A stretch of DNA of 64,000 nt from Sandaracinus amylolyticus (GTDB lineage: Bacteria; Myxococcota_A; Polyangia; Polyangiales; Sandaracinaceae), in the NCBI RefSeq assembly GCF_021631985.1, contig NZ_CP070225.1, positions 1,674,001-1,738,000 of the forward strand, written 5' to 3'. The notes under the pieces are model-generated. The model did no database searches. It saw nothing but the letters and a program-made list of their open reading frames with translations, and was not told the origin of the DNA. The position numbers were made by a program, and so were the translations under genes. Position 1 is the stretch's first letter. Each line of letters begins with the position of its first letter. This document shows, one piece after another, positions 39,261 to 59,836 of the stretch.

Positions 39261-41720
39261 ATGGCGTACACGGTCCTCGCGCGGAAGTATCGACCGCAGA
39301 CGTTCTCCGACCTCGTCGGGCAGGAGCACGTCACGCGCACGCTCGGGAACGCGATCGCCTCGGGCCGCGTGGCGCACGCGTTCCTGTTCACCGGCGTGCG
39401 CGGCGTGGGCAAGACGACCACCGCGCGCATCCTCGCCAAGGCGCTCAACTGCGCGACGCGCGGACCGACCAGCGAGCCCTGCGGGACGTGTGATCCGTGC
39501 CGCGAGATCACGACCGGCGTCGACCTCGACGTGCTCGAGATCGACGGCGCCTCGAACAACAGCGTCGAGGACGTGCGCAGGCTGCAGGAGACCATCCCGT
39601 TCCGCCCTGCGCGCGACCGCTTCAAGATCGTGATCGTCGACGAGGTCCACATGCTCTCGACGGGCGCGTTCAACGCGTTCCTCAAGACGCTGGAGGAGCC
39701 GCCGCCGCACGTGAAGTTCATCTTCGCGACGACGGAGTCGCACAAGGTCCCGATCACGATCCGCTCGCGCTGCCAGCGCTACGACTTCCGTCTGATCCCG
39801 CAGAGCGTCGTCGCGGCGCGGGTGCGCGACATCCTCGGCCGCGAGGGCATCCAGGCCGACGACGCGGCGGTCGCGATCGTGGCGCGCGAGGCCGCGGGCT
39901 CGATGCGCGACGCGCTCACGCTGCTCGACCAGATCGTCGCGTTCGCGGGCACGACGCTGGTGGGCGAAGAGGTCGCGCGGGTGCTCGGGATCGCGGATCG
40001 CGATCTGCTGCATCGCGCGTCGGCGGCGGTGCTCGAGGGCGACGGCGCGGGCGCGCTCGGCGTGGTCGACGCGCTCGCGACGCGCGGCCTCGACATGCTG
40101 CACTTCTCGAAGGCGCTCACCGAGCTGATGCGCGATCTCGTGGTGCTCAAGGTCGCGGGCCCGGGCACCGAGCTCGTCGCGCTGGTCGAGGAAGAGCGGC
40201 GCAAGGCGCTCGATCTCGTGGAGCGCGTCGAGGAGCTCGAGATGCAGCGCGCGTTCGCGTCGCTCTCGCTGCTCGTCGACGAGATCGCGAAGGCGTCGAT
40301 GCCGCGCCTGGCGCTCGAGATGGGCCTGGTGCGCCTCGCGACGCGGCCGCCGCTGCGCGCGATCGCGGAGATCGTGGCGCGCCTCGACGCGCTGCAGTCG
40401 GGACGCCCGGCGGGCCCGGCGCCGAGCGGGCCGCGTGGTGGTGGCGGCGGGGGCGGCCGTGGTGGTGGCGGCGGCACGCGCACGCCGCGCGCGACCGCGG
40501 CGCCCGACGACGCGAGCGCGCTGATCGAGCGCCTGCGTGGCCCGGGCGCGCGCATCGAGACGGCGGAGCGTCGTGCGGTGATGCCCGCGGCCGACGACGC
40601 CGAAGAAGAACCTGCCCCTGCCGCGAGCGCGTCGTCGTCGGGCGGGCTTCGAGCGCCCGCGGCACACGAGAGCGCCGAGCCGTCGAGCGCCGGAGCAACC
40701 CCCACCGGACCGGTAGCGAGCGCTGTCGCACCGGTAGCGAGCGCTGTCGCACCGGTCGCGAGTGCTGTCGCACCGGTAGCGAGCGCTGTCGCACCGGTAG
40801 CGAGCGCTGTCGCACCGGTAGCGAGCGCTGTCGCACCGGTAGCGAGCGCTGTCGCACCGGTAGCGAGCGCTGTCGCACCGGTAGCGAGCGCTGTCGTACC
40901 GGTAGCGACTTCGTCCCGCCCCGGAGCGACTTCGTCCGGACCCGCAGCCAGCGTTGTCGCACCGGGAGCGACTTCGTCCGCACCCGTAGCGAGCGAGCTC
41001 CGACACGAAGTGACTCGTTCCGGACCTGTTTCGGCGCAGTCCGCGCCGGCGGCACGTCCTGTCCCGCCGGTCGATCCCGCGCTCGCGTCGGTCGACGCGC
41101 TCTTCCAGGCGCTCTCCGCGACCCCGCGTCCCGCACCGGCATCCCGCCCCGCGCCGGCGCCCGCGGTGCCGGCGTTCGTGCCCGCCGCGTTCTCCCCCGC
41201 CGTCGCCCCCGCACCCGCACCCGCCGTCGCCCCCGCCCCCGCACCCGCACCCGCCGTCGCACCCGCACCCGCACCCGCACCCGCCCCCTCCCGCGCCGCT
41301 CCGCCCGACGCCGACGCCACCACCCGCTGGGAGACCGTCGTCGCCGTCCTCATGGAGACCCGCCCCGCGCTCGGCTCGGTCCTCCTGCACGCCTCGCCCT
41401 CGCGCGTGGGCCGCGACGAGATCGTGATCGCGTTCCCCTCGGGCTCGTTCTACCGCCGTCAGGCCGATGCCCCCGACGCGCGCGCCGCGATCGCCGAGAT
41501 CGCCGAGCGCGTCCTCGGGGCGCGCCCCTCGGTCCGCGTCATCGAGCGCGACGCCGGCGATCCCGGCGGCCAGACCATCGCCGAGCTCGAGGCCGAGCGT
41601 CAGCGCGCCCGCTGGGAGGCCACGAAGAAGAAGGCGCTCAACCACCCGATGGTGGTCGAGGCGCTCTCGGTGTTCGAGACGCGCCCCGACGCCGCCGAGG
41701 TACGACTCGAGGGCGATTGA
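39261..41720 (+). CDS. dnaX: DNA polymerase III subunit gamma/tau
   Basis: Protein of 819 aa, the clamp-loader ATPase of DNA polymerase III. AAA+ motifs: Walker A GVRGVGKTT (45-53), zinc-binding cysteines C64, C74, C77 and C80, DEVH box (127-130), and the SRC box (RSRCQRYDF). A long Pro/Ala-rich linker follows, holding nine copies of PVASAVA encoded by a 21-bp tandem repeat (from residue 484), then Pro/Ala repeats. The C-terminal 130 residues look like the tau polymerase-binding domain (VVAVLMETRPALGSVL). Followed by ybaB and recR, the classic order. Start at ATG 39261 with no strong ribosome binding site. Confidence 0.97.
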   Translation: MAYTVLARKYRPQTFSDLVGQEHVTRTLGNAIASGRVAHAFLFTGVRGVGKTTTARILAKALNCATRGPTSEPCGTCDPCREITTGVDLDVLEIDGASNNSVEDVRRLQETIPFRPARDRFKIVIVDEVHMLSTGAFNAFLKTLEEPPPHVKFIFATTESHKVPITIRSRCQRYDFRLIPQSVVAARVRDILGREGIQADDAAVAIVAREAAGSMRDALTLLDQIVAFAGTTLVGEEVARVLGIADRDLLHRASAAVLEGDGAGALGVVDALATRGLDMLHFSKALTELMRDLVVLKVAGPGTELVALVEEERRKALDLVERVEELEMQRAFASLSLLVDEIAKASMPRLALEMGLVRLATRPPLRAIAEIVARLDALQSGRPAGPAPSGPRGGGGGGGRGGGGGTRTPRATAAPDDASALIERLRGPGARIETAERRAVMPAADDAEEEPAPAASASSSGGLRAPAAHESAEPSSAGATPTGPVASAVAPVASAVAPVASAVAPVASAVAPVASAVAPVASAVAPVASAVAPVASAVAPVASAVVPVATSSRPGATSSGPAASVVAPGATSSAPVASELRHEVTRSGPVSAQSAPAARPVPPVDPALASVDALFQALSATPRPAPASRPAPAPAVPAFVPAAFSPAVAPAPAPAVAPAPAPAPAVAPAPAPAPAPSRAAPPDADATTRWETVVAVLMETRPALGSVLLHASPSRVGRDEIVIAFPSGSFYRRQADAPDARAAIAEIAERVLGARPSVRVIERDAGDPGGQTIAELEAERQRARWEATKKKALNHPMVVEALSVFETRPDAAEVRLEGD
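40710..40898 (+). repeat. 21-bp tandem repeat inside dnaX, nine copies
   Basis: Units of CCGGTAGCGAGCGCTGTCGCA start at 40710 and repeat every 21 bases through about 40898; one copy (40752) has two substitutions. They encode the heptapeptide PVASAVA. Degenerate copies follow to about 41020. This is a flexible linker between the ATPase and tau domains, so length change is probably tolerated. Confidence 0.95.
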
Positions 41721-41732
41721 GCGACTGCCCAA

Positions 41733-41813
41733 AAATCGGCTCGCCGGCGGAGGGCCCTCCCGTCCGCGTGCGCCGCACGCTCCCGTGCGGGCCCTCCGCC
41801 AGGCGAGCACTCC
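41733..41813. repeat. Two-stem palindromic element, copy 1 (after dnaX)
   Basis: Begins AAATCGGCTCGCC and ends CGAGCACTCC. The outer stem is GGCGGAGGGCCC (41746-41757) with GGGCCCTCCGCC (41789-41800), a perfect 12-bp pair. The inner stem is GCGTGC-GCC-GCACGC (41766-41780). Copy 2 at 58638-58714 has the same ends and core (CCGTCCGCG, GCTCCCGT), but different stem bases that still pair. It separates dnaX from ybaB. Confidence 0.75.
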
Positions 41814-41892
41814 AGCTGGACCGAGCGCGTTGTGTCGCCGGGGCCTCTGAGTAACAATCGCCCCCCTTCCAACCCGGAGCGAAGCAGATCCG

Positions 41893-42219
41893 ATGAGCAC
41901 GCATTTCCGCGGCGGCATGAGCGAGCTGATGCGCCAGGCCAGCCGCCTTCAGCGCAAGATCGAGCAGCGCAAGAAGGAGCTCCATAGCGAGGTGGTCGAG
42001 GCCGGCGCCGGCAACGATCAGGTCAAGGTGAAGGTCAACGGCGCCAAGGAGCTGGTCTCGATCGAGATCGCGCCCGAGCTCCTCAAGGGCGAGGACCTCT
42101 CGATGGTCCAGGATCTCGTCGTCGCCGCGGTGAACGCCGGCATGAAGAAGGCGAACGAGGTCGTCGACGCCGAGCTCGAGAAGGTCACCGGCGGTCTCAA
42201 GATCCCGGGCTTGTTCTGA
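41893..42219 (+). CDS. ybaB: YbaB/EbfC-family nucleoid-associated protein
   Basis: Protein of 108 aa with the YbaB pattern: an N-terminal helix with LMRQASRLQRKIEQRKKEL, then central strands around VKVNGAKELVSIEIAPELLK, then a C-terminal helix. Known members bind DNA as homodimers with a tweezers-like shape. Located between dnaX and recR as in many bacteria, though the element at 41733-41813 stands between it and dnaX. ATG 41893 is used; the next in-frame ATG is eight codons on. Confidence 0.93.
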   Translation: MSTHFRGGMSELMRQASRLQRKIEQRKKELHSEVVEAGAGNDQVKVKVNGAKELVSIEIAPELLKGEDLSMVQDLVVAAVNAGMKKANEVVDAELEKVTGGLKIPGLF

Positions 42220-42280: not shown

Positions 42281-42871
42281 ATGGACGATCCGCTCGCCGA
42301 GCTCGTGATGCTGCTCGCGCGCCTCCCCGGCATCGGGGAGCGCACCGCGACGCGCCTCGCTCACCACGTGCTCGGCGCGGATCCCCAGTACGCCGCCGCC
42401 CTCGGTGCCTCGATCGCGCAGATCCACGAGCGCGTCCGGCACTGCGAGCGCTGCGGCAACTGGGCGCTCGATCCGCTCTGTCGCGTGTGCGCCGATCCGC
42501 GGCGCGACCCCGCCGTGCTCTGCGTCGTGGCGCGGGTGCCCGACCTCGCCGCGATCGAGAAGAGCGGCACGTTCCGCGGCCGCTACCACGTGCTGCACGC
42601 GCTGCTCGCGCCGCTCGACGGCATCGGCCCCGACGCGATCGACGTCGATCGCCTGATCACACGGGTGCGCGAAGAAGGCGTGCGCGAGGTCGTCGTCGCG
42701 ACGCCGCTCAGCGTCGAGGGCGAGGCGACCGCGCTCTATCTCGCCCAGTCGCTCAAGCCCTTCGGTGCGCGGGTCTCGCGCATCGCGAGCGGCCTGCCGC
42801 ACGGCGGCGAGCTCGAGTTCGCCGATCAGATCACGCTGGGCCGCGCCCTCGACGGACGACGAGAGCTGTGA
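42281..42871 (+). CDS. recR: Recombination mediator protein RecR
   Basis: Protein of 196 aa, typical RecR length. Helix-hairpin-helix (RLPGIGERTATRLAHHVL), a C4 zinc finger (C55, C58, C67, C70), and a Toprim domain (about 78-165). With RecF and RecO it loads RecA at gaps. ATG 42281 is the start nearest the helix-hairpin-helix; an upstream in-frame GTG would add 13 residues. Its stop overlaps sctV (GTGA), an unusual partner for recR. Confidence 0.96.
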   Translation: MDDPLAELVMLLARLPGIGERTATRLAHHVLGADPQYAAALGASIAQIHERVRHCERCGNWALDPLCRVCADPRRDPAVLCVVARVPDLAAIEKSGTFRGRYHVLHALLAPLDGIGPDAIDVDRLITRVREEGVREVVVATPLSVEGEATALYLAQSLKPFGARVSRIASGLPHGGELEFADQITLGRALDGRREL

Positions 42872-57606: not shown

Positions 57607-58620
57607 GTGCGGGTGGCGTTGATCGGCGCCGCGCTCGCGGTGATCGGCGCGGCGTCGGGGCCCTTCGCGGCCCACGCGACCGAGCCCGACGCGACGGGCA
57701 CGGAGCGCACGCCCGATCCGCCGGGCGAGGAGAGTGCTCCGCCGCGGAGCGATGCGCGGCTCGAGCCCGGTCCGCGCGACGAGGGCGAGCCGCCCGAGGT
57801 CGAGCTGTTCCCCGAGGACACGCTGGGCGCGGCGGCGGGCTGGGAGCTGCGTCCCGAGCCGGCCCCGAGCACGACCGAGGAGCAGTCGGAAGAGGACCTC
57901 GACCGCTGGATGGACGGCCAGCTGCGCGACGACGCGGTGGGCGCGGGCGCGACCGACGGCTGGTACCACGCGCTCGGTCAGTCGATGCGCCGCGAGTTCC
58001 GCCCGAGCCTCGACGACATGACGCGCGATCGCCAGGCGCGCATGGACACGGTGCAGCGCGTGGCCGACGAGCTGGGACGGCACGCGCAGCGCCCGCAGCG
58101 CCCGATGGATCCCGCCGGCGTCGCACCGAGCACGATCTTCGCGCGCACGCGCGAGGACGAAGCGGTGCAGGACAGCTTCGATCAGCGCAGCCCGCTCTAT
58201 GCGCCGATCACCTGGCACCGCGTCGAGGTGCGGGTGACCCACGCGCCCGACGGGACGATCCTCGCGGTGCACGTGCTGCGCACGTCGGGCATGCCGTCGA
58301 TGGATCGTGCGGCGATCGAGGCGGTGCGCGCCGGGGCGACGAGCGCGCCGCGGCCGCCGCCGCGCGTGCACGGCGAGCGCCCGAATTTCGTGAGCGAGTG
58401 GGCGTTCGAGGTGGGCGACGTCGCGCCGCACTGGAACGTGGTGGGCGGCGTCGACGGGCCGACCGGCGAGGGCATGCAGGGCGCGGCGCTCGGTCGCGGC
58501 GTGATGCGCACGAGCGTCTCGCTTCTCCGCGTGACCGACGCGATGCACCCGAGCATCGAAGAGCGACGCGCGGAGCGCCGGCGCGAGCGTCGGGAACGCG
58601 CAGAGCGTCCCGAGCGCTGA
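57607..58620 (+). CDS. Exported protein with TonB C-terminal-like domain
   Basis: Protein of 337 aa from the GTG at 57607. A signal peptide precedes a Pro/Glu-rich linker (to about 110), a helical part, then a TonB-C-like domain (about 200-280) with VRVTHAPDGTILAVHVLRTS and MDRAAIEAVRAG, the usual pattern for a small alpha/beta domain that contacts outer-membrane partners. The end is Arg-rich. A GTG at 57529 and one at 57613 are alternatives; the one chosen gives R2 before the hydrophobic core. No proline cage or ExbBD nearby. Role unknown, may link inner and outer membrane. Confidence 0.75.
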   Translation: MRVALIGAALAVIGAASGPFAAHATEPDATGTERTPDPPGEESAPPRSDARLEPGPRDEGEPPEVELFPEDTLGAAAGWELRPEPAPSTTEEQSEEDLDRWMDGQLRDDAVGAGATDGWYHALGQSMRREFRPSLDDMTRDRQARMDTVQRVADELGRHAQRPQRPMDPAGVAPSTIFARTREDEAVQDSFDQRSPLYAPITWHRVEVRVTHAPDGTILAVHVLRTSGMPSMDRAAIEAVRAGATSAPRPPPRVHGERPNFVSEWAFEVGDVAPHWNVVGGVDGPTGEGMQGAALGRGVMRTSVSLLRVTDAMHPSIEERRAERRRERRERAERPER

Positions 58621-58637: not shown

Positions 58638-58714
58638 AAATCGGCTCGCCCGCCGGTTCCTACCGTCCGCGCGCTTCGCGCGCTCCCGTCCAGGACCGGC
58701 GGGACGAGCACTCC
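58638..58714. repeat. Two-stem palindromic element, copy 2 (between TonB-C and rtcB stops)
   Basis: Same ends as copy 1 (AAATCGGCTCGCC ... CGAGCACTCC). The outer stem is CCCGCCGGTTCCT (58649-58661) with AGGACCGGCGGG (58692-58703), one bulged T. The inner stem is GCGCGC-TTC-GCGCGC (58669-58683). Stem bases differ from copy 1 while pairing is kept. It lies between convergent stops, consistent with a terminator or a dispersed palindromic repeat. Confidence 0.75.
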
Positions 58715-58723
58715 GGCAAGGAC

Positions 58724-59836
58724 TCAGGTGCCCTTGTGCACGAGCACGGGGCGCATCGTGCGGACCACGCGCACCAGCTCGCGCTGGGCACGCATCACGC
58801 GCTTCACGTCGTTGTACGCAGACGGCGCTTCTTCCACGAGCTGCGCCGCCATCCGCGCGTCGTACGCGACTCCGTCCATCTGCCGCGCGAGCTCGCGCGC
58901 CGACACTCGACGTCGCGCCTCGCCGCGGGTGAGCGCACGACCTGCGCCGTGCGCGCTGCTCGAGAGCGCGGGCGCGTGGCCGCGCCCCTCCGCGTGATGG
59001 CTCGCGGTGCCCATCGATCCGGGAACGAGCACCGGCGCACCTTCGTGTGCCGGCACCGCGCCCTTGCGATGGACCCAGAGCGACTCGCCGTCGTGCGACT
59101 CGCGCGCGACCGCGTCGTGATGGCACTCGATCCACGACGCCGCATCGGGCGTCGCGTGGGTGTGCGTCGCGACGATCTCCGCGACGCGATCCGCGATGAT
59201 GCGACGGCTCGTTCGTGCATAGGCGAGCGCGACGTCGAGATCGTGCAGGTACGCGCGCCCTTCGTCGCTCTCGGCGTCGAGGCACGCGAAGCCCTCGTCG
59301 TCGCGGGCTGCGCGCGCGGCGTGCGCCTCCTGGATGGCGGGCCCCAGCGCGCGCGAGCCCGAGTGCACCATCAGCCAGAGCGCGCCGTCCGCTTCGTCTT
59401 CCTGGAGCTCGACGAAGTGGTTGCCGCGCCCGAGCGTGCCGAGCTGCACCGCGCCATCGCGCGCGCGGATGCGCTCGAGCACGCTGCTCGAGAGCGGCGG
59501 GCCCTCGAGAGCGCGCGTGGGCCCGCGGTGGGTCGGCACCGCGCGCGAGAGATCGCCGAGCACGCGCGCTGCGATCCGAGGATCACGCACGCGCTCGGCG
59601 GACGTACCGAGGGACATCGCGGCCACGCCGCAGCCGAGATCGGAGCCGAGCAGCTCCGGCCTCAGCGTGCGACGCGTCGCGATCGCGGTGCCGACGCACG
59701 CATCGCCGGCGAGGTGCACGTCGGGCATCACTGCGACGCGCGCGACGTCGGGCGCGCGTGCGACGCGCTCGAGGAAGCGGCGGACGTCCGCCGCGAGCGG
59801 TCCTGCGGACCAGATCGCGATCGGTGCGACGCTCAT
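58724..59836 (-). CDS. rtcB: RtcB-like RNA ligase
   Basis: Protein of 370 aa. Metal ligands: C69 in SDLGCG, H140 in GNHFVE, H158 in MVHSGSR, and the ECHHD cluster (H239/H240). The guanylylation site is H296 in AHGAGR. These match RtcB, which joins 2',3'-cyclic phosphate ends to 5'-OH ends. Slightly shorter than E. coli RtcB (about 408). Its ATG overlaps the stop of the RbfA-like gene (ATGA). No archease or RtcR nearby. Probably an RNA repair or ribosome-rescue enzyme. Confidence 0.93.
   Translation of the reverse strand: MSVAPIAIWSAGPLAADVRRFLERVARAPDVARVAVMPDVHLAGDACVGTAIATRRTLRPELLGSDLGCGVAAMSLGTSAERVRDPRIAARVLGDLSRAVPTHRGPTRALEGPPLSSSVLERIRARDGAVQLGTLGRGNHFVELQEDEADGALWLMVHSGSRALGPAIQEAHAARAARDDEGFACLDAESDEGRAYLHDLDVALAYARTSRRIIADRVAEIVATHTHATPDAASWIECHHDAVARESHDGESLWVHRKGAVPAHEGAPVLVPGSMGTASHHAEGRGHAPALSSSAHGAGRALTRGEARRRVSARELARQMDGVAYDARMAAQLVEEAPSAYNDVKRVMRAQRELVRVVRTMRPVLVHKGT

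Follow-up and report, generated by a model that had tools for sequence, protein, structure and literature searches.

Palindromic repeats at stop codons in Sandaracinus amylolyticus, a probable family of non-autonomous mobile elements

The 64,000-nucleotide stretch of DNA from the soil myxobacterium Sandaracinus amylolyticus analysed here (the window) holds two similar hairpins at different genes, and the question they raise is what kind of sequence they are and how they came to be there. The first-pass annotation had placed two-stem hairpins at 41733-41813 and 58638-58714, had read their differences as compensatory changes, and had offered structured RNAs, terminators or REP-like elements as possible families. 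The coordinates and the named pairings were confirmed. In copy 1, GGCGGAGGGCCC pairs with GGGCCCTCCGCC and the inner GCGTGC with GCACGC; in copy 2 the stem is built on CCCGCCGG, and GCGCGC pairs with GCGCGC on the inside, a change from T-A to C-G relative to copy 1. Folded as RNA of the plus strand, copy 1 reaches -58.4 kcal/mol, where shuffles average -35.6 (z -6.9, equalled by 0 of 200 shuffles) and copy 2 reaches -45.6 kcal/mol (z -3.7, equalled by 1 of 200). We consider that both hairpins are probably members of a family of non-autonomous, REP/MITE-like mobile palindromes that insert at TGA stop codons.

The features at copy 1 are:

39261-41720, plus strand: dnaX, DNA polymerase III gamma/tau (gene call; NCBIfam dnaX_nterm, E 1.3e-125)
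41718-41720, plus strand: dnaX stop codon TGA, the insertion site of copy 1
41719-41723, plus strand: GAGCG, left copy of the 5-bp repeat around copy 1, overlapping the dnaX stop
41724-41822, plus strand: copy 1, the entire inserted segment, 99 bp, subtype A (missing at the orthologous junction of the congener G008)
41737-41813, plus strand: copy 1 palindrome between the conserved feet CGGCTCGC and GAGCACTCC
41739-41757, plus strand: 5' arm of the outer stem, GCTCGC plus GGCGGAGGGCCC (fold; pair counts in 39 other copies)
41758-41765, plus strand: conserved 5' internal loop, TCCCGTCC
41766-41780, plus strand: inner hairpin, GCGTGC-GCC-GCACGC (fold)
41781-41788, plus strand: conserved 3' internal loop, TCCCGTGC
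41789-41808, plus strand: 3' arm of the outer stem, GGGCCCTCCGCC plus GCGAGC with AG between (fold; alignment)
41823-41827, plus strand: GAGCG, right copy of the 5-bp repeat
41893-42219, plus strand: ybaB/ebfC, the gene after copy 1
42281-42871: recR, after ybaB/ebfC

Those at copy 2 are:

57613-58620, plus strand: gene left of copy 2 with a TonB-like C terminus; stop TGA at 58618-58620
58638-58714, plus strand: copy 2, palindrome with AAAT foot, subtype B (orthologous copy in G008, locus L092)
58715-58723, plus strand: tail of subtype B, GGCAAGGAC, which separates copy 2 from the stop codon by 9 bp
58724-59836, minus strand: RtcB-family gene
58724-58726: RtcB-family stop codon (TCA on the plus strand), 9 bp from copy 2

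Anatomy and distribution of the family

The family consists of imperfect palindromes with fixed feet (CGGCTCGC and CGAGCACTCC), a variable stem, conserved internal loops and an inner hairpin. The parts follow the order AAAT, CGGCTCGC, variable outer arm, CCGTCC, inner hairpin, CTCCCGT, complementary arm, CGAGCACTCC, with about 80 bp between the feet and 99 bp inserted at copy 1; in the aligned copies the feet read AAATCGG and CACTCC. Among 115 distinct copies, a set that includes some false matches, the CCGTCC loop is exact in 91 and the CTCCCGT loop likewise in 91. Read by eye, GTCCA and GCTCGC recur at both element ends, inverted and with spacers of unequal length, a terminal inverted repeat that is only partial. 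At least three subtypes differ in their stems and keep the feet and loops: subtype A (GGCGCAGGGCCC..), to which copy 1 belongs, subtype B (CCCGCCGGTCC..), to which copy 2 belongs, and the rarer subtype C (TGCGCAGCCAGCTC.., inner TGCCC/GGGCA). The A and B labels follow a simple motif rule that mislabels a few copies, for example L056 and the copy at 3329 in L061, which have B-like tails, and L021, which has an A-like tail. Copies of subtype C were seen at L020:140-310, L065:4350, L066:5643-5813 and L080:5696, also in small arrays; direct repeats containing GAATTC lie on either side in L065 and L066 and on the right side only in L080. Its target may differ from that of A and B.

Copies are abundant in two genomes. 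A feet-only pattern (the two feet at fixed spacing), which misses copies with an altered foot and yields a few chance matches, gave 288 matches against 2 for the reversed pattern in the host genome G000 (Sandaracinus; 10.96 Mb in two contigs), and 135 against 2 in G008 (10,327,335 bp), where at least two of the matches listed, lacking the core, look like chance. With copy 1 as query, 40 candidates scored of 336 in G000 gave 73 alignments, some of them the same places on the opposite strand. The other 181 of the 183 genomes searched within the taxonomic order had 0-2 feet-pattern matches each (controls 0-4), and a subtype-A covariance model, run under strict filters with 25 candidates scored per genome, was positive in G000 and G008 only. 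A third genome of the genus, the draft G009 (6.0 Mb, 820 contigs), had no copies by pattern or model.

Inside the window, a model built from 39 other subtype-A copies, with neither window copy in its training set, ranked copy 1 first (E 8e-23) and copy 2 second (E 1e-16). Copy 1 read in reverse complement came third (E 1.7e-7); away from the two copies nothing scored better than 295-372 on the minus strand (E 0.0027). Since a model of subtype A alone detects copy 2, A and B are one family. A first covariance model (R1, automatic structure, 11 pairs) was left unused, and an Rfam search of the window gave no match at gathering score.

Dispersal extends to a plasmid: a copy lies on the 209,732-bp contig of G000, which is identical to plasmid NZ_MW053453.1 (Sandaracinus sp.) across the 2,101 bases that were compared, so that the family occupies both chromosome and plasmid. 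Arrays were counted at 18 of 96 sites in G000 and 6 of 32 in G008, both undercounts because identical copies were removed (those with identical flanks being counted once). Head-to-tail arrays of near-identical copies were noted at L087:5189-5601, L107:9427, L020:1275-1532 and L023:999-1329. In G000 the identity of a copy to its nearest relative has a median of 97%, and at least a tenth of the copies have an identical one; recent activity of the family is possible.

Outside the genus the trail is thin. A stricter pattern that includes the 5' loop gave 18 matches in the species genome collection, with no Sandaracinus record among them, although that collection may leave out records of the window's own genome or of a very near one. 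One of these, L144 (MAG contig NZ_JACCSO010000540.1, labelled Nannocystis), is recovered by the covariance model at E 2.8e-15 and has the second loop; a true relative and a misbinned contig are both possible readings. The copy, at L144:69-145, sits at the contig end, with the stop of a reverse-strand ORF 7 bp beyond it. Of the remaining 17, L158 alone has a pattern match that also scores with the model (E 0.0002), and it is without the second loop; in L160 a weak model match was unrelated to the pattern match. Folding energy fails to separate L144 from the other outside matches and was not counted as evidence. Two pattern matches in viral contigs were not recovered by the model, and annotated phages, searched with copy 1 only, gave no match.

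Stop codons and insertion

A common position after stop codons, which the first-pass annotation had suggested looking for, was found and is far more exact than expected. Sites were sampled from copies that were listed by the searches or lay in fetched regions; 164 non-redundant copies fell at 128 sites, of which one near a locus end was dropped. A predicted stop codon stands in register (within 8-20 bp to the left of the feet or 4-19 bp to their right, windows that were set after a first tally) at 97 of the remaining 127 sites, against 483 of 6000 random non-coding points scored with the same windows; 30 sites have none, and just 2 lie inside a predicted gene. Gene calls came from our own codon-usage caller and are not curated. 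In subtype A the stop precedes the left foot by 14-17 bp at 31 of 59 sites. Subtype B is stricter still, with the stop exactly 9 bp past the right foot at 42 of 65 sites, as compared to 23 of 6000 random points. The two subtypes are in opposite orientation relative to their stop codon. By an alternative yardstick, taken over the regions fetched by then and a looser copy set into which the loose pattern admitted false copies, stop codons make up 486 of 1,698 non-coding TGAs. Of the 117 stops in register, 112 are TGA (background 1,369 of 1,532). Part of the stop excess may be due to selection against insertions elsewhere, which cannot, however, account for a constant spacing of 9 bp.

The junction between dnaX and ybaB gives the clearest view of an insertion. 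G008 reads GGCGATTGAGCGCGTTG at the orthologous position, with a single GAGCG and no element; the window has 99 bp more, placed after GATTGAGCG, and has GAGCG twice. The two genomes agree in the position of the dnaX stop, so copy 1 did not bring the stop with it. Copy 2, in contrast to copy 1, is common to both genomes at an orthologous site.

For 27 of the 128 sites both flanks lay in a fetched part of the other genome, and the other 101 were without a usable counterpart. Fourteen of these 27 rows are shared, representing seven sites seen from both genomes, copy 2 included; sharing was scored by pattern and the alignment was inspected for four of the seven. At one shared site (L107/L108) the array is longer in G008 than in G000. 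The remaining 13 rows are not shared. More element-free junctions with the stop in place were found at L014/L087, at L109 2918/L194, where the stop without the element is TAA in G008, and at L216/L196, where adjacent convergent stops TGA-A-TCA in G008 correspond to TGA-element-TCA in G000 with a B copy between. At L102, L103, L108 14293, L109 8424, L209 and L217 6700 the intergenic sequence is replaced and there is no clean empty site (L102 5123 is a doubtful copy), and L101, counted among the unshared, has a degenerate copy in the other genome.

Flanks across the family carry a faint trace of duplication. Left and right flanks resemble each other beyond shuffled pairs in a looser set with some false copies (8 of 5000 shuffles for A, 1 of 5000 for B); the later site tallies used the stricter pattern. 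Of the A sites, 23 have TGA to the left and YGA to the right, the orthologous pairs L006/L074 and L027/L077 among them; in 15 of these the two sides agree at the fifth base of TGAGN, with 10.0 expected from shuffles and 44 of 5000 as high. Positions 4, 6, 7 and 8 of the A flanks show no excess agreement. TCA is present on the left too at 18 of 39 B sites, against 4 of 59 A sites. The signal is weak, and it fits about five duplicated target bases blurred by age.

Pairing between the arms

Whether the arms vary together was examined within subtypes A and B only. The alignments (A2 and A3) took copies of the commonest length only, 40 of 54 distinct A and 36 of 51 distinct B, and one divergent copy was omitted from each (L054 and L071), a selection that leans to pairing. 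In the 39 gap-free A copies, standard pairs fill 91.7% of pair cells and double changes occur at 6 of 24 pairs; the covariation score of 0.080 was reached by none of 500 shuffles (0.039 ± 0.006), and structures slid by 1-3 columns scored 0.015-0.045. The number of further pair types was not unusual (105 of 500 shuffles). The 35 B copies have standard pairs in 94.7% of pair cells, with one stem position unpaired in 16 of 35, and their covariation is no higher than that of shuffles (83 of 500). Neither of the outcomes that the first-pass annotation had named as speaking against a structured family, a lack of further copies or a loss of pairing, was thus observed; its covariation was borne out between subtypes and within A, and not within B.

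An alignment-free comparison of arms, made on the looser set with some false matches, favours a copy's own arms in both subtypes. Own arms fold at -21.4 kcal/mol against -18.7 for arms swapped within subtype A, and at -18.2 against -16.0 within subtype B, with 0 of 2000 permutations as good in either case. Own arms were also favoured for the inner hairpin of B, where 0 of 2000 permutations did as well; in A they were not, with 415 of 2000 as good. Fitch counts over a tree of the 39 A copies put the state changes of the two pairs that vary most at 10 and 14, and many of these lead to mismatches.

It is likely that the fold is under selection. That is, however, only one explanation of the complementary changes, which the first-pass annotation had ascribed to selection on structure. 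They could instead arise by template switching, in which a quasi-palindrome corrects itself, or by exchange between copies, and we regard this as a real possibility while leaning against it. Exchange or conversion would produce a site such as the orthologous L006/L074, where the two species differ in both arms at once, and mismatched intermediates are frequent, with 13 of 39 A copies mismatched at columns 18-64. Arm-to-arm copying would tend, on the other hand, to erase unpaired loops, and CCGTCC and CTCCCGT are conserved and unpaired across A, B and C. Either origin of the pairing can go together with a mobile element.

Movement, rival explanations and relation to known repeats

High copy number, dispersal over chromosome and plasmid, presence/absence differences between species, a near-fixed stop register and arrays are all seen here, and they are what leads us to favour mobile palindromes. 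In the mechanism that we propose, an enzyme acting in trans would recognise the folded or duplex palindrome together with its feet and insert each copy by attacking a TGA that usually ends a gene, so that about 5 bp including the stop would be duplicated. The host gene would then keep its stop, and insertion would be nearly harmless. The stop would come to lie at the left end of A and the right end of B; as the outer ends differ and the stop is at opposite ends in the two subtypes, the outer ends may set the orientation. The stem would be kept because the folded form is what gets recognised.

A search for a mover took in four enzyme families, and none of them could be identified as the mover. 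Y1_Tnp (PF01797) gave no match in G000, G008 or G009, with a positive E. coli control, and is present in 5 of 7 other genomes of the taxonomic family searched. DDE_Tnp_1 (PF01609) had none in G000 and four identical-scoring genes in G008, whose fetched flanks held no full element (L139 has one 12-base near-match to a foot). For rve there were three matches in each of the three genomes and no element in the flanks of the eight loci fetched. RVT_1 gave 5 matches in G000, 14 in G008 and 0 in G009; one of 12 reverse transcriptase loci fetched, L172 in G008, has a full copy in its flank, and L163 in G000 shows no more than a partial foot of 10 bases. A model scan covered three of the five G000 reverse transcriptases (L163, L165 and L167); their best PADLOC models are RT_XIII or RT_other, of retron type, and there is no full element near them. 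The RVT_1 matches at these three loci pair by score with ones in G008. G008 also has eight RVT_1 matches of near-equal score, none of that score being in G000; seven were fetched (L162, L164, L166, L168, L170, L172 and L173), and L172 adjoins an element. These eight may be multiplied group II intron proteins.

The enzyme distribution admits a bolder reading, that of a stop-homing hairpin whose mechanism lies outside both the Y1 route of REPs and the common DDE route, a hairpin that would spare the host gene by duplicating the stop and might be copied through RNA by retron-type reverse transcriptases. Such enzymes are found in both carrier species and not in the one genome of the same genus without copies; this correlation, across three genomes of which one is a draft, is only a lead, and we think the reading unlikely.

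It is also improbable that these are REPs of the RAYT type, moved as single strands by an IS200/IS605-like Y1 enzyme since lost from the genus, with TGAG as the cleavage tag. The palindrome with unpaired conserved feet and the clusters do resemble REPs, the ends of GTAG REPs often contribute the TAG stop of an adjacent gene in the passages of PMC3733652 that treat them, Y1 enzymes occur in other genomes of the taxonomic family as noted above, and the copy 1 junction taken alone fits equally well. However, Y1_Tnp is absent from all three genomes of the genus, there is no GTAG foot, the element is about twice the size of a REP, and the base after TGAG is common to both sides beyond shuffles, which a Y1 enzyme would not give.

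An RNA element of 3' ends, that is, a terminator or mRNA-stabilising hairpin kept after stops and spread by duplication, would account for the stop register, the rarity of copies within genes and the very stable hairpins, and the subtype B hairpin ends with a T-rich foot on the strand of its stop gene. Subtype A, however, has the polarity opposite to its stop gene and no T run, and copy 1 lies within a dnaX-ybaB-recR gene string, where a terminator would be unwelcome. A clean insertion with repeated bases would demand a transposition step in any case, and judged from sequence such an element is very improbable. A family of intrinsic terminators, one of the options offered in the first-pass annotation, is not supported as the general explanation, as the terminator scan was negative at both window copies and A and B stand opposite to their stops, so that one T-rich foot (the reverse of AAAAT) cannot serve both. 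The REP-like alternative in that annotation, in contrast, is supported by dispersed, high-copy palindromes.

If mobile palindromes are the right reading, the genus carries abundant elements whose insertion is set almost to the base pair by a stop codon, so that hundreds of them cause no visible damage, and the family joins the CGTC REPs as one without the Y1 transposase tied to GTAG REPs. For annotation, if the sampled sites are typical, a few hundred genes of the genus carry an element at their 3' end. With two Sandaracinus assemblies that share some copies and differ in others, the identity of the mover becomes testable.

In the open-licence PMC literature searched there was no description of such a family in Sandaracinus, no report of stop-codon-directed insertion, and none of the near-fixed register, the element-free stop or the conserved internal loops. 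The S. amylolyticus genome paper used ISfinder and CRISPRfinder, and its relevant passages name no repeat family (PMC5010890). Contact with stop codons and a missing enzyme are not wholly without precedent, as the GTAG and CGTC REPs show in the relevant passages of PMC3733652. Like REPs and BIMEs of the RAYT type, the Sandaracinus family is high-copy, extragenic and clustered, its ends touch stops, and its stem changes are complementary, as noted for REPs in part of PMC2817692. Unlike them it is about twice as long, has conserved internal loops and a probable short TGA duplication, and lacks both a GTAG (or GTRG) foot and a Y1 enzyme in three genus genomes. CGTC REPs, in the passages of Di Nocera et al. 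2013 (PMC3733652) that describe them, are likewise palindromic repeats without a dedicated transposase; there CGTC is a terminal tag and the repeats measure 20-40 bp, whereas here CCGTCC is an internal loop. MITEs, as characterised in part of PMC10969869, are short, intergenic, flanked by direct repeats and able to form stem-loops. The Sandaracinus elements are likewise short, intergenic and stem-loop-forming, and copy 1 has a direct repeat on either side. They are unlike MITEs in being G+C-rich and locked to stop codons with only a partial terminal inverted repeat, and a limited search of PF01609 and rve loci found no parent IS with matching ends. The attC sites of integrons are folded recombination sites with variable self-complementary stems. 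Although no cassettes lie between the arrayed Sandaracinus copies and the conserved bases differ, a variable self-complementary stem is common to both.
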